Assembly: GCA_023379935.1 (NCBI GenBank)
Contig: JAMCPD010000003.1
Location: forward strand, 1-64,000
Length of the DNA: 64,000 nt
DNA from: Actinomycetota bacterium
GTDB lineage: Bacteria; Actinomycetota; Acidimicrobiia; Acidimicrobiales; JAMCPD01
Direction: 5' to 3'
The notes beneath the pieces are model-generated. The model was given only the letters and a program-made list of their open reading frames with translations. It searched no databases and had not been told where the DNA came from. Shown here piece after piece: positions 12,996 through 62,398 of the stretch (positions within the stretch are counted from its first letter, which is position 1; each line of letters begins with the position of its first letter). The position numbers and the translations under genes are program-made.

Positions 12996-13073
12996 TGGTC
13001 GGGCCGGCGGGATTTGAACCCGCGACCTCTTGACCCCCAGTCAAGCGCGCTGACCAAGCTACGCCACGGCCCG
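12996..13073 (-). tRNA. tRNA-Pro (anticodon GGG), CCA encoded
   Basis: Reverse complement CGGGCCGTGGCGTAGCTTGGTCAGCGCGCTTGACTGGGGGTCAAGAGGTCGCGGGTTCAAATCCCGCCGGCCCGACCA; anticodon stem CTTGA/TCAAG with loop CTGGGGG. Confidence 0.95.
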
Positions 13074-18977: not shown

Positions 18978-20705
18978 TCACCGTCTATCCGCGGTTGATG
19001 TCCACCCGGCGCCTGTTGTAGTTTCATCCGTATTTTGACGTTCATTTATATGTCTAAGTAGTCCTAAAACTATAGAATCGACTAAGGCCTCCCAGGAAGC
19101 CTGTATTATATTCGGTGAAACCCCTATGGTGGACCAAGTCCGGCTCCCGTCAGTCGTATCTATGAGTACTCTTGTAACAGCGGCAGTTCCGGCATGCGTA
19201 TCTAAAACCCGTACCCTATAGTCCACAAGGCGCAAATCACTTAAATGCTCGAATTGGGAACTGATAGCTTTTCGAAGAGCAGTGTCTAATGCATTGACCG
19301 GCCCATTGCCTTCGGCGGTTGCCACTATGCATTCTTTTATCCCGCCTACATATACCTTTACTGTCGCTTTAGTAGTCAACTTTGAACCGTACAGCCAAGA
19401 GGGGGAGGTTAGATCTTGATCCTTGGCTGAATCGCTTTGTCCTTTATCCGACTTCTCCTGATCCGTAGTCGACCAGTCTGTAGTCGACCAGTCTGTAGTG
19501 ACTTTAAAAGATTCCAGACGAAAAAAATCCTGCTCCCACCCGGTGGACCTTCGCATCAGCAACTCCAAAGAACCATCAGCTGCCTCAAAATGATAACCCT
19601 CATGTTCTAAGTGCTTCAAGGTATCCAATACCTTTTGGGCAACTTGAGTATCCAAATCCAACCCGAGTTCTTGCGCCTTAAGCGATATGGTGGACCGTCC
19701 TGCTAACTCACTAACCACAAAACGGTCTGCATTACCGACAGTGGCAGGCGATACATGTTCATAAGCTTCTTTCAACCTTACGGTACCGCTGGTGTGCAAG
19801 CCGCCTTTGTGAGCAAAAGCAGCAGAACCTACATAGGGTTGCTGAGATTTAATTCCTATATTTGCTATCTCGGCTATATAGTGAGCAGCTTGAGTCAATC
19901 GAACAAGGTGATCGTCGCCTATGGTCTCCATGTTCAGCTTTAACGATAGATTCGGTATAACAGCACATAAATCCGCATTACCGGTGCGTTCGCCATATCC
20001 GTTTATGCATCCTTGCACATGGGTAACACCCGACATTACCGCCACTATGGTATTGGCTACAGCACAGCCCGTATCGTTATGACAATGTACGCCAATTTGA
20101 GTCCCACCATGACGTTGAACCACTTGGGCGACGATTCTTGAAACATCATGAGGCAAACAACCGCCGTTTGTATCACACAACACTAAGGCTTTGGCCCCGG
20201 CTTCTTCCGCCGCTTTCAGTACATTTAAGCTAAACTCAGGGTTAGCTTTAAAACCGTCAAAGAAGTGTTCCGCATCAAAAAGAACCGTCCGATTATTATC
20301 ACGCAAAAAAGCAACGGAGTCTCTAACCATCGCTATCGCCTCGTCCAATGTTGTACGCAAGGCTTGCGTTACATGCAGATCCCATGCTTTTCCCACTATG
20401 CAGACAACTTCTGTACCGGAGGCAATAAGCTTTAGGAGGTTTTGATCATCTGCGGGGTTGATTCCCGCCTTACGCGTGGAACCGAATGCCACCAGTTTTG
20501 CGGTGGTAAGATTCAGTTCTTTTTTCGCCCGGGCAAAAAACTCATCATCTTTCGGGTTTGCGCCAGGCCACCCGCCTTCAATATAAGTAACGCCCAACCA
20601 ATCAAGCTGCTCAGCCACTCTGAGTTTATCATTGACACCAAGTGACAACCCTTCTTGTTGTGTGCCATCACGAAGGGTTGTATCCAAAACCTCTATCTTA
20701 TCCAC
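18978..20705 (-). CDS. cimA: (R)-citramalate synthase (isopropylmalate synthase family)
   Basis: VLDTTLRDGTQQEGLSLGVNDKLRVAEQLD, HCHNDTGCAVANT, C-terminal regulatory domain. Confidence 0.9.
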   Translation of the reverse strand: MDKIEVLDTTLRDGTQQEGLSLGVNDKLRVAEQLDWLGVTYIEGGWPGANPKDDEFFARAKKELNLTTAKLVAFGSTRKAGINPADDQNLLKLIASGTEVVCIVGKAWDLHVTQALRTTLDEAIAMVRDSVAFLRDNNRTVLFDAEHFFDGFKANPEFSLNVLKAAEEAGAKALVLCDTNGGCLPHDVSRIVAQVVQRHGGTQIGVHCHNDTGCAVANTIVAVMSGVTHVQGCINGYGERTGNADLCAVIPNLSLKLNMETIGDDHLVRLTQAAHYIAEIANIGIKSQQPYVGSAAFAHKGGLHTSGTVRLKEAYEHVSPATVGNADRFVVSELAGRSTISLKAQELGLDLDTQVAQKVLDTLKHLEHEGYHFEAADGSLELLMRRSTGWEQDFFRLESFKVTTDWSTTDWSTTDQEKSDKGQSDSAKDQDLTSPSWLYGSKLTTKATVKVYVGGIKECIVATAEGNGPVNALDTALRKAISSQFEHLSDLRLVDYRVRVLDTHAGTAAVTRVLIDTTDGSRTWSTIGVSPNIIQASWEALVDSIVLGLLRHINERQNTDETTTGAGWTSTADRR

Positions 20706-21642
20706 TTACATACTCTAACCAGTTCTTGTAACGGTCCACCTTACCATGGACCAAATCCAAGTACATCTGTTGTATCTGCTTTGTAATTTTGCCGGGTTTA
20801 CCGGAACCAATGGTGCGATCATCCACAGAATTAATCGGCACGATTTCAGCTGCAGTGCCGCTTAAAAAAGCTTCATCAGCAGTGTATAAATCACTCCTCA
20901 ATAAATTGGCCGTTTCAACCTGCATTCCAATATCGGTTACCATCTCCATTATGGTGTTCTGGGTTATGCCCTCTAATGCTCCGGCGGAAGAAGGGGGGGT
21001 TATGATGTGATCTTTTCTCACCACAAAGATGTTTTCTCCGGTGCATTCGCTCACATAGCCTTGGGGAGAAAGCATAATCGCTTCATCGTAACCGGCTCGA
21101 AGTGCCTCAACCTTCGCCATTGAGGAGTTTATATACATACCGGTTCCTTTGGCCGCAGGAGGCATTGAGTTGGGATCATGTCGTTGCCATGAACTTATCT
21201 TCATCCTTATACCTTTTTCCAGCGCATCATCACCCAAATAAGTTCCCCATGGCCAAACCGCTATAGCAACCCGTACACGAGAATGAAGTGGATTGAGTCC
21301 CATCTCACCATAGCCTAAGTACACAATCGGGCGTATATAGCAAGAATCCAGATTATCCGCCCAAACCGCATTGTTGGCCCACAAGGTCTCTTTGGTTGCC
21401 TTTACCAGGCCTTCCAAAGAAAAGGGCACATTTATCGCAAAGATCTTTGCCGAATCCAAAAGTCGTGCCATATGATCAGACAGCCGAAACACCGCAGGCC
21501 CCAAAGGGGTGGCATATGCGCGAATTCCTTCAAATACTCCACACCCGTAATGGAGGCTGTGAGTTAAAACGTGAATTTGCGCCTGATCCCAATCAACCAG
21601 TTCGCCATCCATCCAAATTTTCTCAGTGGGGGTTATAGGCAT
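20698..21642 (-). CDS. ilvE: Branched-chain amino acid aminotransferase
   Basis: WMDGELVDWDQAQIHVLTHSLHYGCGVFEGIRAY; ECTGENIFVV. Confidence 0.93.
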   Translation of the reverse strand: MPITPTEKIWMDGELVDWDQAQIHVLTHSLHYGCGVFEGIRAYATPLGPAVFRLSDHMARLLDSAKIFAINVPFSLEGLVKATKETLWANNAVWADNLDSCYIRPIVYLGYGEMGLNPLHSRVRVAIAVWPWGTYLGDDALEKGIRMKISSWQRHDPNSMPPAAKGTGMYINSSMAKVEALRAGYDEAIMLSPQGYVSECTGENIFVVRKDHIITPPSSAGALEGITQNTIMEMVTDIGMQVETANLLRSDLYTADEAFLSGTAAEIVPINSVDDRTIGSGKPGKITKQIQQMYLDLVHGKVDRYKNWLEYVSG

Positions 21643-21746
21643 ACTTCCTGTACCTCATCTCTACAAGTTTACCTGATGCATCTAATCTGTGTGCACCATC
21701 CCTGCGCATATCTAAGTTTGTGTGCATTTCAGTGTTTCCGGCTCAT

Positions 21747-22787
21747 TCACTGACTTACCATTTTAGCCAACCCATCCCCTACTTGTTGAGTGGATAGCTC
21801 TCCGGTATCAAGCCAACTGCCCGACATATTATAAGCATAGCTTAATACGCTAGTGGCTATTTTGTCAGCTGCTTCTGATTCTCCAAGATAGTCCAACATT
21901 ATTCCCGCCGACCTAATGGCAGCCAATGGATTGGCTCTCCCGGTGCCGGCTATGTCCCAGGCGGCACCATGCACAGGTTCAAACATTGAAGGGTACTTTC
22001 TGGTTGGGTTCAAATTGGCGGAAGCGGCAAAACCTACTCCGCCTGTAACAGCGCCTGCCAGGTCCGTTATGATATCTCCAAAAAGATTGTCGGTTACTAT
22101 CACGTCATATCGCAAAGCATCTTCTACCAGATATATGCAGGTGGCATCCACATGGTTGTAGTCTGACGCAACATCGGCAAACTCCTCGCCGACCTGTTCA
22201 AAAGTTCTTTTCCACAAGTCTCCCGCAAAATTTAGAACATTTATTTTATGCACAAGCGTCAAATGCTTCGCAGGTCTCTTACGGCTAAGTTCATAGGCAA
22301 AGCGCACGCAACGTTCCACACCAAAGCGGGTATTTAACGAACCTTGAGTTGCAACCTCATCTGCGGTTCCCTTTCTCAGCACACCGCCTTCGCCCACATA
22401 AGCACCCTCTGTATTCTCCCTCACAACCACAAAATCGCACTTGGGAAAGATGGAGTTAGACACACCGGTAAAAGGGCGAAGGTTGATATAAAGATCCAAT
22501 TCAAAGCGTAACCGTAATAAAAGCCCCCTTTCAAGCAACCCCGGCGGTACGTCATTAGATCCGACTGGAGGCCCTACCGCGCCAAGCAGTATCGCATCCG
22601 CGCCCTTTAATTCGGAAAGGGTTGAATCAGACAACACCTCACCAGTGCGCAAATAGTGGCTTGCCCCCAAATCATACTCTGTAACGTCAAGCTTGACTCC
22701 TGTGGCATCAACCACCTTCAAAGCCTCGGACATGACCTCAGGTCCTATCCCATCTCCTTTTATTAAAGCTATGTTATACTTGCTCAA
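21747..22787 (-). CDS. leuB: 3-isopropylmalate dehydrogenase
   Basis: IALIKGDGIGPEV; VTDNLFGDIITDLAG; EPVHGAAWDIAGTGRANPLA. Confidence 0.92.
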   Translation of the reverse strand: MSKYNIALIKGDGIGPEVMSEALKVVDATGVKLDVTEYDLGASHYLRTGEVLSDSTLSELKGADAILLGAVGPPVGSNDVPPGLLERGLLLRLRFELDLYINLRPFTGVSNSIFPKCDFVVVRENTEGAYVGEGGVLRKGTADEVATQGSLNTRFGVERCVRFAYELSRKRPAKHLTLVHKINVLNFAGDLWKRTFEQVGEEFADVASDYNHVDATCIYLVEDALRYDVIVTDNLFGDIITDLAGAVTGGVGFAASANLNPTRKYPSMFEPVHGAAWDIAGTGRANPLAAIRSAGIMLDYLGESEAADKIATSVLSYAYNMSGSWLDTGELSTQQVGDGLAKMVSQ

Positions 22788-22903
22788 AACACCTCGTTTT
22801 ACCTATTGAATTGGGAATAAACTACAAAACACCTTAATCTCCCAAACTACCTATTCCTAATAGTACACAAACTCACAAAAAAAGTGTAGTCTTATTTAAA
22901 GAG

Positions 22904-23404
22904 ATGGATAGTATAGAAAACCCCCAAACTCATTTGACAAAAGAGGCATACGACCGGCTTGTCGCGGAACTTACCGAGCTGACTACTACAAGAAGAATTG
23001 AGATTGCAAAGGTTATAGAGGCTGCGCGTCAGTTGGGCGATCTTTCAGAAAACGGTGACTATCATGCCGCAAAAGATACACAAGGTAAAATGGAAGCCCG
23101 TATACGCCATATAGAAACTATACTTGCCACAGCGACAATCGTTGACAGACAACAAAGCACCTATGACACCGTTACACCGGGTACGGTAGTATGGCTGCGA
23201 TATGACGGCGATGATGAAGCTGAGCCCTTCTTTGTCGGCTCCATAGAAGAACGTCAAAACAGCATGCCGGTTGCATCAACCGGTTCTCCTTTAGGTAAAA
23301 CTTTATTGGGACACAAACCTGGTGATATAATAGAGTATGAAGCTCCCGGCGGTAAACTGCGGGTCGAAATAGTAAAGATAGGCGACAGTGCAAACGACAG
23401 TTAA
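22904..23404 (+). CDS. greA: Transcription elongation factor GreA
   Basis: LTKEAYDRLVAELTEL...IEAARQLGDLSENGDYHAAKDTQGKMEARI. Confidence 0.92.
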   Translation: MDSIENPQTHLTKEAYDRLVAELTELTTTRRIEIAKVIEAARQLGDLSENGDYHAAKDTQGKMEARIRHIETILATATIVDRQQSTYDTVTPGTVVWLRYDGDDEAEPFFVGSIEERQNSMPVASTGSPLGKTLLGHKPGDIIEYEAPGGKLRVEIVKIGDSANDS

Positions 23405-23425
23405 AAAAATGACAGCGATGCTTAG

Positions 23426-24847
23426 ATGAAAAAAACACTTTTGGATAAAATATGGGATACTCACCTTCTAAGCGATGACCTTATCTACATAGACCTTCAT
23501 TTAACTCACGAAGTTACCTCTCCGCAAGCTTTTGAGGCACTCAAGGTGACGGGGCGTAAAGTTCGCAGACCAGACTTGACCATCGCAACAGCCGATCATG
23601 ATGTCCCGACTTGTAATACTGATCAACCGGTTGCTGATCCGATAGCAGCGCGCCAACTGGAGGTGCTCACCGCCAACTGCGCTTATTTTGGCATCACCTA
23701 CTACCCTATGGGCAGTAAAAACCAGGGTATCGTACATGTAATAGGTCCGGAACTTGGGCTTAGCCAACCAGGAATGACCATAGTATGCGGAGACAGTCAC
23801 ACAGCTACACACGGAGCTTTTGGAGCATTGGCGTTTGGTATCGGAACCAGTGAGGTTGAACACGTATTGGCCACGCAGACTCTTGTTCAAAAAAAGCCTC
23901 TCTCAATGGCCATAACAATCAATGGAACCCCGCCCGCTAACACAAGCGCCAAAGACATCATAATAGCCATAATAGCCAAAATAGGCACCGCCGGCGGTGC
24001 TGGACATGTAATTGAATACAGAGGTGATACCGTTCAAAACCTTTCAATGGAAGCCCGTATGACCATATGCAATATGAGCATAGAAGCGGGAGCCAGGGCC
24101 GGTATGATCGCCCCGGATGAAACCACTTTCGCCTATATTGAGGGACGAAAGTTTGCTCAGTCGGCTTCTCGCTTTCGCCAAGCCGTGGATTACTGGAAAA
24201 GCCTACCGTCAGATAATGACGCAACCTTTGACACCGAAACGGAGATAGATGTAAGCAACCTAAAACCCTACGTAACTTGGGGAACCAACCCCTCCCAAGC
24301 AGTAACAATTGATGGATCAGTGCCTGATCCAGGTAACTTTACATCAAAAAAAGACCAAGAATCTGCCATAAAAGCTTTGGACTATATGGGGCTGAAACCG
24401 GGCACTCCGATAAAAGATATACCGGTGGATGTGGTGTTTATAGGCTCTTGCACCAATGCAAGAATTGAGGATTTGCGCAGTGCCGCAACGGTAGTCAACG
24501 GACATAAAGTGGCAAAAAATGTGACTGCTCTTTTGGTGCCGGGATCAGCAAGGGTCAAACAACAAGCGGAGGATGAGGGTTTGGACAAGATATTTATCGC
24601 AGCAGGTTTTGAGTGGAGAGAGCCTGGATGTTCAATGTGCTTAGCTATGAACCCCGATAAGCTCCTCCCACAACAGCGCTCTTGCTCCACATCAAATCGT
24701 AACTTTGAGGGGCGCCAAGGACCGGGTGGACGCACCCATTTAGCGTCGCCTGCTATAGCGGCTGCCACTGCAATATTGGGACATTTTGGGCAACCGGAGG
24801 ACTTGGGTGTGGAGATTATTCGGGAAGCCGGAGGCAACCAAACATGA
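23426..24847 (+). CDS. leuC: 3-isopropylmalate dehydratase large subunit
   Basis: [55 protein letters not shown]. Confidence 0.95.
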
Positions 24848-25482
24848 AACCGGTTCGAAAAATAGTATCCAAAGCCGTTCCTTTGGAACGTTCAAATGTG
24901 GATACTGACCAGATTATTCCGGCAGTTTGGCTGAAAAGGGTAGAGCGTACCGGTTATGCTGACGGCTTGTTTGAAGCATGGCGAAAGGACCCTGATTTTG
25001 TTCTCAACCAGAGCCAATACGTCGGTGGCACTATATTGATCGCTGGAAGCAACTTCGGAATAGGCTCTTCTCGGGAACATGCCGTGTGGGCGCTGCAAGA
25101 CTACGGTTTTGAAGCAGTGGTATCATCACGATTTGGTGATATCTTTTTTAATAACTGCATATCGTGTGGTTTGGTTCCAGTCGTTGTGGATTCTGAAGTC
25201 GTAGATGAACTTTTCAAACTGACCAAAGACAACCCTCAGGCAGAGGTAACCATAGATGTTGAAAATAAGCTTATCTCTGTTGTCGATGTTTCTCCTGACT
25301 CCCCGTCTTTTACAGGTGCAAACAAGATCACAAAACCCATATCAGCGCCTATCCATCTGGATGACTTTAGCATACAAAAACTGGTCAACGGCTGGGATAA
25401 CATAGACTTGACACTTCAACACGAAAAGGAAATAACCGCTTATGAGCAAAATAGGCCCTCATGGATGGTGACAGTAAGTTAG
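24844..25482 (+). CDS. leuD: 3-isopropylmalate dehydratase small subunit
   Basis: [47 protein letters not shown]. Confidence 0.95.
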
Positions 25483-25516
25483 CCGGATAATCATTTAATC
25501 CGGTGTTGGCAATCTA

Positions 25517-25558
25517 GCCAATCAGGGCCAGCCAATCAGGGCCAGCCAATCAGGGTCC
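25517..25558. repeat. 14-bp tandem repeat x3 at leuD/leuA convergent junction
   Basis: GCCAATCAGGGCCA x2 + GCCAATCAGGGT(CC). Confidence 0.9.
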
Positions 25559-27157
25559 GATATCTCTATGTGGCTGAGTGAAGTGTTGATTGTGTCCTTG
25601 TTGTTTGGCCCTTATCAAACGGTTGACGGCATTGAGGTAAGCTCTCGCAGATGCCTCCACAACATCTGTTGAAACCCCCCTGCCGGATACCTTGTATCCG
25701 TCATCTTCCAGTTGAATAACCACATCACCCAACGCGTCTATCCCGCCGGTTACAGCGGATACTTTGAAATCAGCAAGTTTGGCTTGAATGCCCACAGCTT
25801 GTCGTATTGCAGTGCAAACTGCGTCTATCATCCCGTCTCCGGTCGCATCAGCCTCCACCTTTTGAGCATCAGAGGACTCTCCGTGTTGGGGGCTGTAACG
25901 ACTTAAGGTAACCTTGGCATAAGGATCTCCGACAGTACCGCCTCTCACCTCCAACGAATCCAAGACATAGTTTGTCTCGAGGCAAGTACCCAGTTCCTCT
26001 ACAACGATAGCCTCCAAATCAGCCTCTGTTATCTCTACTTTCCGATCTGCCAACTCCTTGAAACGGGTAAAGGCGGAGTTGAGAGCGTCTCCTGATATGG
26101 AAAAACCCAACTTTGTCAAGGTATCGGCAAAAGCATGACGTCCCGAATGCTTACCCAATACAATCTGACTTCCCACCTGCCCTACGGTTGCTGCTTCAAT
26201 GATTTCATAAGTACTTCTGTCTTCTAACACTCCGTGTTGATGAATACCTGCCTCATGAGCAAAAGCGTTGCGCCCTATCACAGCTTTGTTGTACTGCACC
26301 GGATAACCTGTCAACTTAGATACCAGCCTGGAAGTGCGCGCCAACTCCGAAGTGTTCACACCGACTTCTATGTTTGGAAACTGGTCCGGTCTGGTCTTTA
26401 TCGTCATGACAACCTCTTCCAACGCGGCATTCCCGGCCCTCTCTCCTATCCCGTTTATACATACCTCAACTTGAGCGGCACCTTCAAGTACTCCGGCCAA
26501 TGTATTAGACGTCGCCAAACCAAGGTCATTATGACAGTGCGTAGATATTACATACTCCCCCGGCACACTACTTCTTATATCATGGATTAACCTGCCAAAT
26601 TCCTGTGGAACGCCGTATCCTACAGTATCGGGAATATTCAATGTCGTAGCACCATATTCCACGGCGGTACAAAGTACTTCAATCATAAAATCCCACGGTG
26701 TTCTGGTGGCATCCTGAGGTGAAAACTCCACATCGTCAACATGCTCCTTGGCCCGGGAAACCCCCTGACGCACCTCAGCTATCACCTGCTCGGGAGTCAT
26801 CTTGAGCATATGCTCCATGTGAATCGGACTGGTTGAAATGAACACATGTATTCTGGCTTTTGGTGCATCTCGTAAAGCTTCCCAGCAGCGATCTACATCT
26901 AAAAGTTGCGTCCGGGATAGTCCCGCTATTGCGGGGCCCTGCACAGTTCTGGCAATAGCCTGCACGGCTTCAAAGTCACCTTGAGACGATACGGGAAATC
27001 CGGCTTCTATGTAATCAACACCAAGCCGGGAAAGTTGCTCTGCTATTTCAAGTTTTTCACCGGGATCCAAGGAAATACCGGGAGCCTGTTCCCCGTCTCG
27101 CAAGGTTGTGTCAAAGATGATAAGGCGGGTTGGTGACGTGTTCCCTGACGTTTTCAT
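25550..27157 (-). CDS. leuA: 2-isopropylmalate synthase
   Basis: [53 protein letters not shown]-type GKHSGRHAF. Confidence 0.94.
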
Positions 27158-28179
27158 CCGCCGGATACCTCTTCCAACGATGGTTTCCCGCCGGAAACGA
27201 ACGGCATCATAGAGCGGAGCTGTTTACCGACCTTTTCAATAGAATGATTCTTTGCCTGCTCCCTCAATTTATTGAAGTTAGGACGGCCGTTGGCATTTTC
27301 CTGGATCCATTCTTTGGCAAAACTTCCGTCCTTTATCTCTCCAAGTATCCTGCGCATCTCCTGCTTTACCGAATCATTGATTACGCGAGGACCTCGCGTC
27401 ATATCTCCATATTCCGCGGTATCAGAGATCGAAAAGCGCATACCGCTTATCCCCTGTTCATACATCAGATCCACTATCAACTTCAACTCGTGCAAACACT
27501 CAAAGTACGCCGACTCGGGCTGATAACCGGCCTCCACCAAAGTTTCATATCCGGCCATGGCAAGTGCCGTCAGTCCTCCACATAACACCACCTGTTCGCC
27601 AAAAAGATCGGTTTCAGTTTCTTCGGCAAAAGTTGTTTCAAGCACACCGGCTCTTGTGGCACCAAGTGCATAAGCATAAGCAAGTCCGAGCTCATGCGCC
27701 TTTTGAGTAGCATCTTGGGCTACCGCCAGTAGGGAGGGCACGCCACCGCCTTCCAAATAAGTACGCCGCACCAGATGTCCGGGGCCCTTTGGAGCCACCA
27801 TCACTACGTCTATGTCCTTTGGCGGGTTGATCTGAGCAAAATGAATGTTGAACCCATGTGCGAAAAACAAAGCTTTACCTGATGTCATGTGCGGTGCTAT
27901 CTGGGATTCATATATAGCCTTCTGTTCAGTATCAGGAGCCAACATCATAACTAAGTCGGCTTCACGGGCTGCTTGATCAATAGTGGCAACCTTGAGACCT
28001 TCGTCTTTGGCTTTAGGTATTGAAGATGAACCGTCTCGAAGTCCGACACGCACATCTATTCCGGAATCTCTCAAATTCAATGCATGTGCATGACCTTGTG
28101 ACCCATACCCCACTACTGCTACCTTGCGATCAGCTATCACCGATAAGTTTGCGTCTTTTTCATAATAAAGTTTTGTCAT
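27154..28179 (-). CDS. ilvC: Ketol-acid reductoisomerase
   Basis: [34 protein letters not shown]; probable ATG at 28179 (MTKLYYEKD) rather than the upstream TTG at 28188. Confidence 0.95.
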
Positions 28180-28222
28180 AAAAGACAAGTATAGTATGTT
28201 TTGGACACAACCACTTCCAATT

Positions 28223-38399: not shown

Positions 38400-38897
38400 C
38401 TACAGCCTGGGCAAAGCAATACGACCGGATCTCGCCAGTTCTATGATGTCATAAGAACGCATCAGCACTTCGAAGTCGTCTAACTTTGATGGAGAACCTG
38501 CCAACATTACGGTCAACATTGAGGTGCCCACATCTACTATTTGTCCTTCGAAAACCCCTACAAGTTGTATTACTTGCGCTCGAAGGTCCGAATCCGCCTT
38601 GATTGTTGCCAGCAACAACTCTCTTTCGCGAGCCAGCGAAGGGTGCAACTCGGATATCTCTACAACATTGATCAACTTGTCAAGCTGCTTTACCATCTGA
38701 TCTAACGGGGCCCTCTCCACATCAACTACCAACGTTATCCGGCTAAACCGTTCATCCTGGGTAGGGGCAACAGCTAAAGAGAAGATGTTGAATCCGCGGC
38801 GTGCAAACAAACCGGCAACTCGGGCAAGTACACCTGCTTTATTTTCAACCAAAACTGACAATATATGATGTTGGCGGGAAAAGGATGATTCGTTCAT
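38400..38897 (-). CDS. ilvN: Acetolactate synthase small (regulatory) subunit
   Basis: HHILSVLVENKAGVLARVAGLFARRGFNIFSLAVAPT; ATGA overlap with ilvB. Confidence 0.95.
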   Translation of the reverse strand: MNESSFSRQHHILSVLVENKAGVLARVAGLFARRGFNIFSLAVAPTQDERFSRITLVVDVERAPLDQMVKQLDKLINVVEISELHPSLARERELLLATIKADSDLRAQVIQLVGVFEGQIVDVGTSMLTVMLAGSPSKLDDFEVLMRSYDIIELARSGRIALPRL

Positions 38898-40660
38898 GAC
38901 TGTTTTCCTTGAAGCTCCAGCAAGGGGGACACAACTATGTCGTCATTTGAAGCACCGGAAGGAACCATCGGGTATACCTTCTCTGTCGTATCGGTACGAA
39001 AGTCAATTACAACCGAACGGTCATCTATGCTGTTGGCCTTTTCAATTGCAGGAAGGACTTCTTCGGAATGTTCGACCTTCAACCCGATACATCCCATGGA
39101 TTCAGCCCAACCCACATAATCGGGCAGATCAGGCGATAAATAAACCTCGGAGTAACGCTGATCGTAGAACATCTCCTGCCATTGGCGAACCATGCCAAGA
39201 TAAGCATTATTCAGTATCGCCACCTTGATAGGTATCTTTTCAGCCGTTGCCGTAACCAGCTCTTGAGCAGTCATCTGAAAACAACCGTCGCCATCAATCG
39301 CCCAAACCATAGCTGCGGGACGTCCGACCTTGGCTCCAATAGCCGCAGGTATAGCAAAGCCCATCGTGCCAAGTCCGCCGGAGTTTGCCCAACAGTAGGG
39401 ATGGGAGAAGCGCCAGTACTGTGAAGTCCACATCTGATGTTGCCCAACCCCACTCACTACAATAGTGTCGTCGGGGGTGGCATCCCTCAAGGTTTCGATA
39501 ACAAACTGCGGTTTTATAATACCGTTGGAGTAGGTTTTGTCGTAAACAAGGGGATAGGTTTTTTGCCATTCACGTATCTGGTCTATCCAGGGAGTAAGTT
39601 CTAACGACCTGTCAAGATCTTTACCAATGAGCGCTTTGTTTATCTGCTCAATAGCCAACTTACAGTCTGCTGCCACAGCCACATCAGCATGTCTCACCTT
39701 GTCAAACTCAGCTGGATCTATGTCAACATGTATTACCTTCGCATATGGAGCAAACGCAGTCGCTTTGGATATAACTCTGTCATCAAAACGGGCTCCGAGC
39801 GTCAACAAAAGATCAGCCTTTTGCATTGCGGCAACTGCAGTGTAGTTGCCGTGCATGCCAGGCATGCCTAAACACAAGGGATGACTATCGGGAATACATC
39901 CTCTTGCCATCAAAGTAGTCACTACAGGAATACCCGTCAACTCTACAAGATCAGCTAAGGCCTTCGCGGCCCGTGCTCGCAAAATACCCCCGCCCGCATA
40001 AATGACGGGACGTTTAGAAGCTAAAATCAGTTCAACCGCCTGATTTATAGCTGTGGGATCGGCAACAGTCGGAAATTTGTAACCGGGAAGGTCGAGTTCA
40101 TCCACAGACGGCCAGTACCATCTCATAACAGAGTTTGAAATGTCCTTTGGCAGGTCCACCAATACAGGGCCGGGTCTGCCTGTGGTGGCAACATGAAATG
40201 CCTCAGCTATTATACGAGGTATGTCTTGGGCATCGGTAACCAACCAGTTGTGTTTCGTTACTCCCATAGTTATACCGGTCGTATCACATTCTTGGAAAGC
40301 ATCTGTTCCTATGAAAGCGCTTGCCACTTGCCCGGTTATAACAACAATAGGTATTGAATCCATATAAGCATCAGCCAATGGGGTGACAATATTGGTGGCG
40401 GCCGGACCGCTGGTAACCATAGCAACACCAGGACGCCCCGTTACGTGAGCATATCCCTCGGCTGCATGCCCTGCACCCTGTTCATGGCGAACAAGAATAT
40501 GGCGGATCGGAGAAGCCAATATCGGATCGTATACCGGAAGTATCGCACCTCCGGGCAAACCGAAGATGACTTCGACACCTTCCATCTCCAGACTTTTTAT
40601 TAAAGCCTGAGCACCTGTAATCTCCTGCTTCGCTTCCACAATCTCCCGTTTCGCTTCCAT
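38894..40660 (-). CDS. ilvB: Acetolactate synthase large subunit
   Basis: GVEVIFGLPGGAILPVYDPI; HEQGAGHAAEGYA; GDGCFQMTAQELVTA...NN. Confidence 0.95.
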   Translation of the reverse strand: MEAKREIVEAKQEITGAQALIKSLEMEGVEVIFGLPGGAILPVYDPILASPIRHILVRHEQGAGHAAEGYAHVTGRPGVAMVTSGPAATNIVTPLADAYMDSIPIVVITGQVASAFIGTDAFQECDTTGITMGVTKHNWLVTDAQDIPRIIAEAFHVATTGRPGPVLVDLPKDISNSVMRWYWPSVDELDLPGYKFPTVADPTAINQAVELILASKRPVIYAGGGILRARAAKALADLVELTGIPVVTTLMARGCIPDSHPLCLGMPGMHGNYTAVAAMQKADLLLTLGARFDDRVISKATAFAPYAKVIHVDIDPAEFDKVRHADVAVAADCKLAIEQINKALIGKDLDRSLELTPWIDQIREWQKTYPLVYDKTYSNGIIKPQFVIETLRDATPDDTIVVSGVGQHQMWTSQYWRFSHPYCWANSGGLGTMGFAIPAAIGAKVGRPAAMVWAIDGDGCFQMTAQELVTATAEKIPIKVAILNNAYLGMVRQWQEMFYDQRYSEVYLSPDLPDYVGWAESMGCIGLKVEHSEEVLPAIEKANSIDDRSVVIDFRTDTTEKVYPMVPSGASNDDIVVSPLLELQGKQS

Positions 40661-40759: not shown

Positions 40760-40783
40760 AAAAAACCTCCCGACTGGGAGGTT
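40760..40783 (-). terminator. Intrinsic terminator/attenuator upstream of ilvB
   Basis: Minus-strand AACCTCCCAGTCGGGAGGTTTTTT: 8-bp stem, 4-nt loop, T-run; ~100 bp before ilvB start. Confidence 0.8.
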
Positions 40784-40818
40784 CCAAGCATACGCGCCGA
40801 CTAACAGCCAAGCGTACG

Positions 40819-40872
40819 CTAGCCCGTTAGTACTACAGTTTGAATTGATATTTTAATAAAGTTATTTGTCAC
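40819..40872 (-). CDS. Candidate BCAA attenuation leader peptide (V/M)TNNFIKISIQTVVLTG
   Basis: 17-codon ORF with GTG start at 40872; codons Ile, Ile, Ile, Val, Val, Leu; followed by inverted repeats and the terminator at 40760..40783. Confidence 0.5.
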   Translation of the reverse strand: MTNNFIKISIQTVVLTG

Positions 40873-41010
40873 TACAGTTCTATTATTACATAAGATTTGG
40901 CATTTTGCAACACCTATTAGCAAAAAATTTTAGGTTTATCGACAAAACATCAGAAAAAGCAGATATCAACACCATGCTTCCACCTTGTCAGTTCGTAACT
41001 TTCAAAAACA

Positions 41011-61991: not shown

Positions 61992-62398
<407 letters not shown>

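Follow-up and report, generated by a model that had tools for sequence, protein, structure and literature searches.

The window, that is, the whole stretch of 64,000 nucleotides analyzed here, carries on its minus strand the genes of both acetolactate synthase subunits, ilvB and ilvN. Upstream of ilvB lie a putative promoter, a short leader open reading frame (ORF) and two adjoining hairpins termed P1 and T, the latter an intrinsic terminator (Table 1). The nearest public IlvB sequences are mostly those of Acidimicrobiia, a class of Actinomycetota. The leader ORF begins with GTG at 40872 and ends with TAG at 40821-40819, and the distance from the terminator T and its TTGTTATT to the ilvB start (40660) is approximately 100 nt. 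As an earlier note on this DNA had stated, the ORF comprises 17 codons, 6 of which specify Ile, Val or Leu, and no Shine-Dalgarno (SD) sequence precedes its GTG. The strong terminator ACCTCCC-AGTC-GGGAGGT-T6 described there was likewise recovered.

Table 1. Features of the ilvBN leader region, other genes of the window and related loci
Feature	Position	Strand	Remarks
-35 element TTGCAA	40905..40910	-	TTGCCA-like boxes at the equivalent place in relatives
-10 element AATAAT, TG upstream	40882..40887	-	17 nt from the -35 element; 9 nt to the GTG
Leader ORF, probably near-leaderless, 17 codons, VTNNFIKISIQTVVLTG, stop TAG	40819..40872	-	Homologous leaders end LVVxT-TAG
Pair of GTA (Val) codons, presumably the control codons	40831..40836	-	Second starts 12 nt before the stop
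Hairpin P1, 15 bp in the window, starts at the stop codon	40787..40820	-	Covaries and is conserved among relatives
Intrinsic terminator T, GGAACCTCCC-AGTC-GGGAGGTTTT, then TTGTTATT	40762..40785	-	1-2 nt past P1
ilvB, acetolactate synthase large subunit	38894..40660	-	TIGR00118 above cut-off
ilvN, acetolactate synthase small subunit	38400..38897	-	TIGR00119 and NF008864 above cut-offs
tRNA gene	12999-13073	-	
RNase P RNA class A gene	61996-62397	+	
Paralogous loci of the module (leuA, leuB, cimA)	Acidimicrobiia L209-L222, L247-L286		

With regard to the promoter, the arrangement TTGCAA-16 nt-TAATAA had been proposed. TTGCAA and a -10 box are indeed present, but the box is better read one base later, as AATAAT, with a 17-nt spacer. 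If transcription begins 6-8 nt past this box, the 5' UTR would measure about 1-3 nt. The promoter search in relatives was blind to the leader start, although the region searched was set relative to the leader stop. An ATG or GTG in the leader frame was located 5-10 nt past the -10 box in all 76 leaders with a strong promoter (76/76), while the two other frames gave 0. The commonest spacing between the -10 box and the start in relatives, 9 nt (36 of 94 leaders), is that of the window itself. Furthermore, SD-like sequences accompany 6 of the 76 leader starts as against 35 of 43 ilvB starts. The spacing in relatives and the rarity of SD sequences support 5' UTRs of approximately 0-4 nt among them, and with these the near-leaderless start that had been postulated for the window. 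The findings suggest that leaders of the near-leaderless type are conserved and no oddity.

After removal of duplicates, 103 upstream regions were obtained, 98 of which were given a leader ORF by rule and 94 of which were analyzed. It can be observed that most leaders of relatives present LVVxT or a similar ending, TAG, a hairpin 5' arm near CGCACGC and then T. A nucleotide profile of 78 relatives, with the window excluded, found its sole significant match within the 64 kb at the leader site (E = 1.1e-6). When T was masked in the same profile the window match was not significant (E = 0.92), so T carries most of the profile match for the window taken alone. The window leader is atypical in that an additional Gly codon stands ahead of the stop, and its covariance-model score of 50 bits, compared with up to 85 in relatives, is lower than that of many of them. 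This covariance model, R1, was trained on 79 leaders including that of the window, and most of the genomes of the order that were tested lie outside the training set. The order was sampled by 298 genomes, mostly metagenome assemblies, and 271 of them gave a match, including 219 of 227 good genomes and 165 of 171 genera. Several weak hits were set aside: no convincing leader or target gene was present at L223, L224, L274 and L276, and L279 overlaps a tRNA-like sequence. The leader arrangement is not a product of chance. The Ile/Val/Leu codons and the terminator, whose loss in close relatives the earlier note had named as decisive against its reading, are mostly kept in the leaders analyzed.

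In the window, folding of the leader surpassed 200 of 200 dinucleotide shuffles (z = -3.3). In the alignment of homologous leaders that had been recommended, the block GTA GTA CTA ACG is conserved and P1 and T both covary, with pair changes on both sides. All five covariation measures lay above each of 500 shuffles and above all slid controls, a result that is strong but should not be read as a formal probability, the shuffles taking no account of relatedness. At ilvB, the upper stem of T, CCTCCC/GGGAGG, is nearly invariant across many families (alignment A1). Two other elements of the earlier reading fared differently. The inverted repeat CTAAC/GTTAG is present in the window and absent from the relatives in A1, which speaks against a functional role. 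GCGTACGC and GCGTATGC, noted earlier as able to pair, do so within the 15-bp hairpin P1, which adjoins the terminator and is not a mutually exclusive arm; P1 and T have no arm in common. A strict scan across the 64 kb returned two intrinsic-terminator-like hairpins, T and one other, so the genome seems to hold few of this type. T is not a generic terminator of these genomes either, as the exact stem occurs once each in five of eight whole genomes and in four of those five is situated at the ilvB leader. It should be noted that the 3' arm of T is a perfect SD sequence. The possibility that this GGGAGGT arm, which matches the anti-SD, serves a second ORF was considered and discarded, no conserved start codon being visible after it by eye.

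Such conserved stem sequences, including the nearly invariant upper stem of T, might also be expected if the leader were a riboswitch or bound a protein instead of encoding a peptide, and in Firmicutes ilvB is preceded by ppGpp riboswitches (cited in PMC10272879). At the leader, however, no family of Rfam 15 scored above its gathering threshold or at a relaxed threshold; Phe_leader, with a cut-off of 55 bits, reached 17. No match to an ilvB-II motif appeared among these families. No conservation of the P1 loop was detected among relatives in A1, and the conservation that exists follows the reading frame and the codons. An explanation of this type is accordingly regarded as highly improbable.

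The codons themselves display a marked bias. GTA makes up 63% of the 215 Val codons in the leaders and 3% of those in the accompanying ilvB genes, an enrichment of about twenty-fold. In 89 of 94 leaders the stop is preceded by an in-frame GTA at a distance, counted from its first base, of 12 nt (53 leaders) or 9 nt (36 leaders). Of the leader described earlier, the final GTA GTA CTA ACG is conserved, whereas the three Ile codons further upstream in the window lie outside the conserved block. GUA has also been named as a control codon in M. tuberculosis (PMC13236596) and C. glutamicum (PMC11857589), and in M. tuberculosis the change of LVVI to AAAA abolished induction (PMC13236596). The leader ORF is rich in codons for the amino acids of the downstream pathway, and an intrinsic terminator sits between it and the structural gene, both of which characterize ribosome-mediated attenuators.

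Many relatives possess 2-5 copies of the leader element, some of the additional copies again preceding ilvB. Gene assignments at the paralogous loci were made by motifs and three family searches. The copies before leuA have Leu-run leaders (..LLLLT, 14 loci), and those before cimA have Ile-run leaders (IIII, 4 of 4). The copies before leuB, at 29 loci, have Val/Ile leaders, with 3 Leu as against 37 Ile and 38 Val among the final six residues; that these leaders carry Val/Ile rather than Leu codons was unexpected. The promoter, the start spacing and P1 are common to the copies, while T varies by gene, its stem being CCTCCC or CCCCTCGC in ilvB leaders, CCGTCCAC at leuB, CCTCCTG at leuA and GCCGCCC at cimA. 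In the genome of the window no such element was seen at leuB, leuA-ilvC or cimA, and the covariance model matches ilvBN only. The window does contain a branched-chain amino acid (BCAA) gene cluster at 18978-28188, with leuB-ilvE-cimA (-), leuCD (+) and ilvC-leuA (-), none of which has an attenuator.

Because the same architecture precedes leuA, cimA and leuB with matching codons, ribosome-mediated attenuation is strongly argued for, and sensing that depends on translation would be hard to replace by another explanation of the pathway-matched codons. One alternative is constitutive attenuation, in which T would merely fix the expression level and the leader ORF would not be a sensor. In its favor, T is predicted to form in all folding states, and altered codons in the ilvB leader of S. 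coelicolor gave no effect (cited in PMC1262725). Codons that track the downstream pathway over four genes and a roughly twenty-fold enrichment of GTA are nevertheless difficult to account for without translation, and constitutive attenuation is considered quite improbable. It is highly probable that the leader element acts as a switch sensing valine, leucine and isoleucine. The proposal that a leader peptide and attenuator control ilvBN is supported by about 94 leaders of relatives and by the codon-matched paralogous leaders, and ilvBN is most probably subject to ribosome-mediated transcription attenuation. All of the evidence gathered here derives from sequence and thermodynamic folding.

The proposed process can be described as follows. 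Transcription would start within a few nucleotides of the GTG, and a ribosome would begin the 17-codon leader without the aid of an SD sequence. Where valyl-tRNA (and leucyl- or isoleucyl-tRNA) is ample, the ribosome would reach the TAG and cover the 5' arm of P1, and T would terminate transcription; we infer this direction of the response to amino acid supply. With GTA in the A site, a ribosome extends approximately to the stop codon, while one at the stop extends approximately 12 nt beyond it. For comparison, a 26-nt footprint centered on the codon was used in the study of M. tuberculosis (PMC13236596). In 86 of 94 leaders the first base of the P1 5' arm lies at +0 to +2 of the stop; the arm mostly ends at +9 to +15. 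P1 is the likely switch, as its 5' arm spans the stretch that would be free when the ribosome stalls at GTA and covered when it stands at the stop. In ribosome-masked folding of the 94 leaders, pairing in the P1 region was 0.58 with the ribosome at GTA and 0.14 with the ribosome at the stop, so that RNA structure is predicted to depend on ribosome position. T, in contrast, was predicted to form in every masked state (0.95-0.99), with the ribosome at GTA or at the stop. The terminator and antiterminator had been expected to be alternative folds, and this masked folding did not bear out the expectation. Since T stays formed in both ribosome states, thermodynamics alone fails to explain the switch.

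In the classical form of attenuation, as in trp, leader RNA or the 3' region of P1 would pair with the 5' arm of T upon ribosome stalling and thereby exclude the terminator. Published models of this kind exist for M. tuberculosis (PMC13236596) and for C. glutamicum, where three hairpins are described and the antiterminator and terminator share a boundary trinucleotide (PMC11857589). In unmasked RNA ending before the 3' arm of T, pairing between the leader and the 5' arm of T did average 0.34. With the ribosome at GTA, however, upstream pairing of this arm fell to an average of 0.03, the leader stretch concerned would sit beneath the ribosome, and P1 is predicted to free the 5' arm of T slightly rather than to occupy it. 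Moreover, T stems of unrelated sequence occur in the ilvB, leuB and cimA leaders, with no corresponding change in the leader or in P1. The same absence of overlap is seen in four actinomycete ilvB leaders (L143, L149, L153 and L154), in which the hairpin ends just before T and shares no bases with it. No base-paired antiterminator was found when the 94 leaders were folded free, with the ribosome at GTA or with the ribosome at the stop. For this reason the element is assigned to ribosome-mediated attenuation in general and not to its classical form, which is judged unlikely here.

P1 might instead act purely as a pause hairpin that synchronizes polymerase and ribosome, like hairpin 1:2 of trp, with regulation exerted elsewhere, for example through contact between ribosome and polymerase. 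Its position is in keeping with such a role, directly downstream of the stop, where the first ribosome would melt it, and always just upstream of T. Pausing by itself yields no antitermination, however, and no further conserved element was found between the leader and T; a role restricted to pausing is therefore also given a low probability. In relatives, the gap between P1 and T is 0-6 nt, with a median of 3, and no bases are shared. It is because P1 and T share no bases that a steric block of T by P1 is favored: with the P1 helix abutting T within 0-6 nt, the lowest pairs of T would be unable to close at the polymerase's RNA exit channel. Less favored alternatives are a pausing role of P1 and an unseen kinetic competition. 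As a tentative generalization, which we hold with less than even confidence, Acidimicrobiia, and perhaps actinobacteria generally, may possess attenuators without a base-paired antiterminator, in which a hairpin gated by the ribosome abuts the terminator (0-6 nt) and obstructs it sterically; the same module would recur at ilvB, leuA, leuB and cimA, its control codons and terminators swapped.

The present results extend leader-peptide attenuation of BCAA synthesis to a deep and mostly uncultured actinobacterial class. Hundreds of natural variants, with four genes, differing codons and terminators and one common hairpin, are thereby made available for testing actinobacterial ilv attenuation, which has long been unclear. 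A comparable element is reportedly that of Canestrari et al. in 2020, the leaderless polycysteine leaders of mycobacteria, in which a short ORF of cognate codons is said to attenuate a biosynthetic operon. Those leaders resemble the window element in being leaderless short ORFs of cognate codons. They differ in sensing cysteine and are cited as translational attenuation, without a terminator (PMC13236596).

Leader peptides and terminators at ilvB are known from Corynebacterium, Mycobacterium and Streptomyces (PMC1262725, PMC10272879, PMC11857589, PMC13236596). The leaders of Seliverstov et al. 2005 (PMC1262725) in these three genera are similar in that short ORFs containing runs of Ile/Val/Leu, together with terminators, precede ilvB; Acidimicrobiia are absent from the ilvB cases listed there, and leuA is assigned a LEU pseudoknot rather than a Leu-run leader with P1 and T. 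The ilvB1 attenuator of M. tuberculosis (PMC13236596) agrees with the window element in its intrinsic terminator before ilvB and its footprint-toggled hairpin. It has LVVI with GUA and is backed by reporter evidence, but is modelled with mutually exclusive hairpins in a leader sequence of 166 nt. The ilvB-II motif and ilvBNC attenuator of Corynebacterium (PMC10272879, PMC11857589) also combine a BCAA leader ORF, in which GUA and Leu control codons are conserved, with two to three hairpins and a terminator; compared by description, they differ in the boundary bases shared by antiterminator and terminator and in an ORF that covers most of P1.

A close resemblance exists with IlvL of Streptomyces lividans, a leaderless BCAA-rich ORF upstream of ilvBHC with the peptide MRTRILVLGKRVG, a GTA Val codon and hairpins and a U-rich terminator downstream, before ilvB (PMC8079986). 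The identical peptide was found at locus L149. In L143, L149, L153 and L154 the leader ORF includes a stretch with GCGCG that pairs with another, GCGCGC-like, located just before the terminator. In Streptomyces the 5' arm of the hairpin lies within the leader ORF past the control codons, whereas the stop codon marks its beginning in Acidimicrobiia. A near-leaderless ilv leader is thus not new in itself, being known in Streptomyces (PMC8079986). In the open-access literature nothing was found on BCAA leaders of this kind in Acidimicrobiia; the class-wide element, not found described for this group, belongs to the already known ribosome-mediated attenuation.
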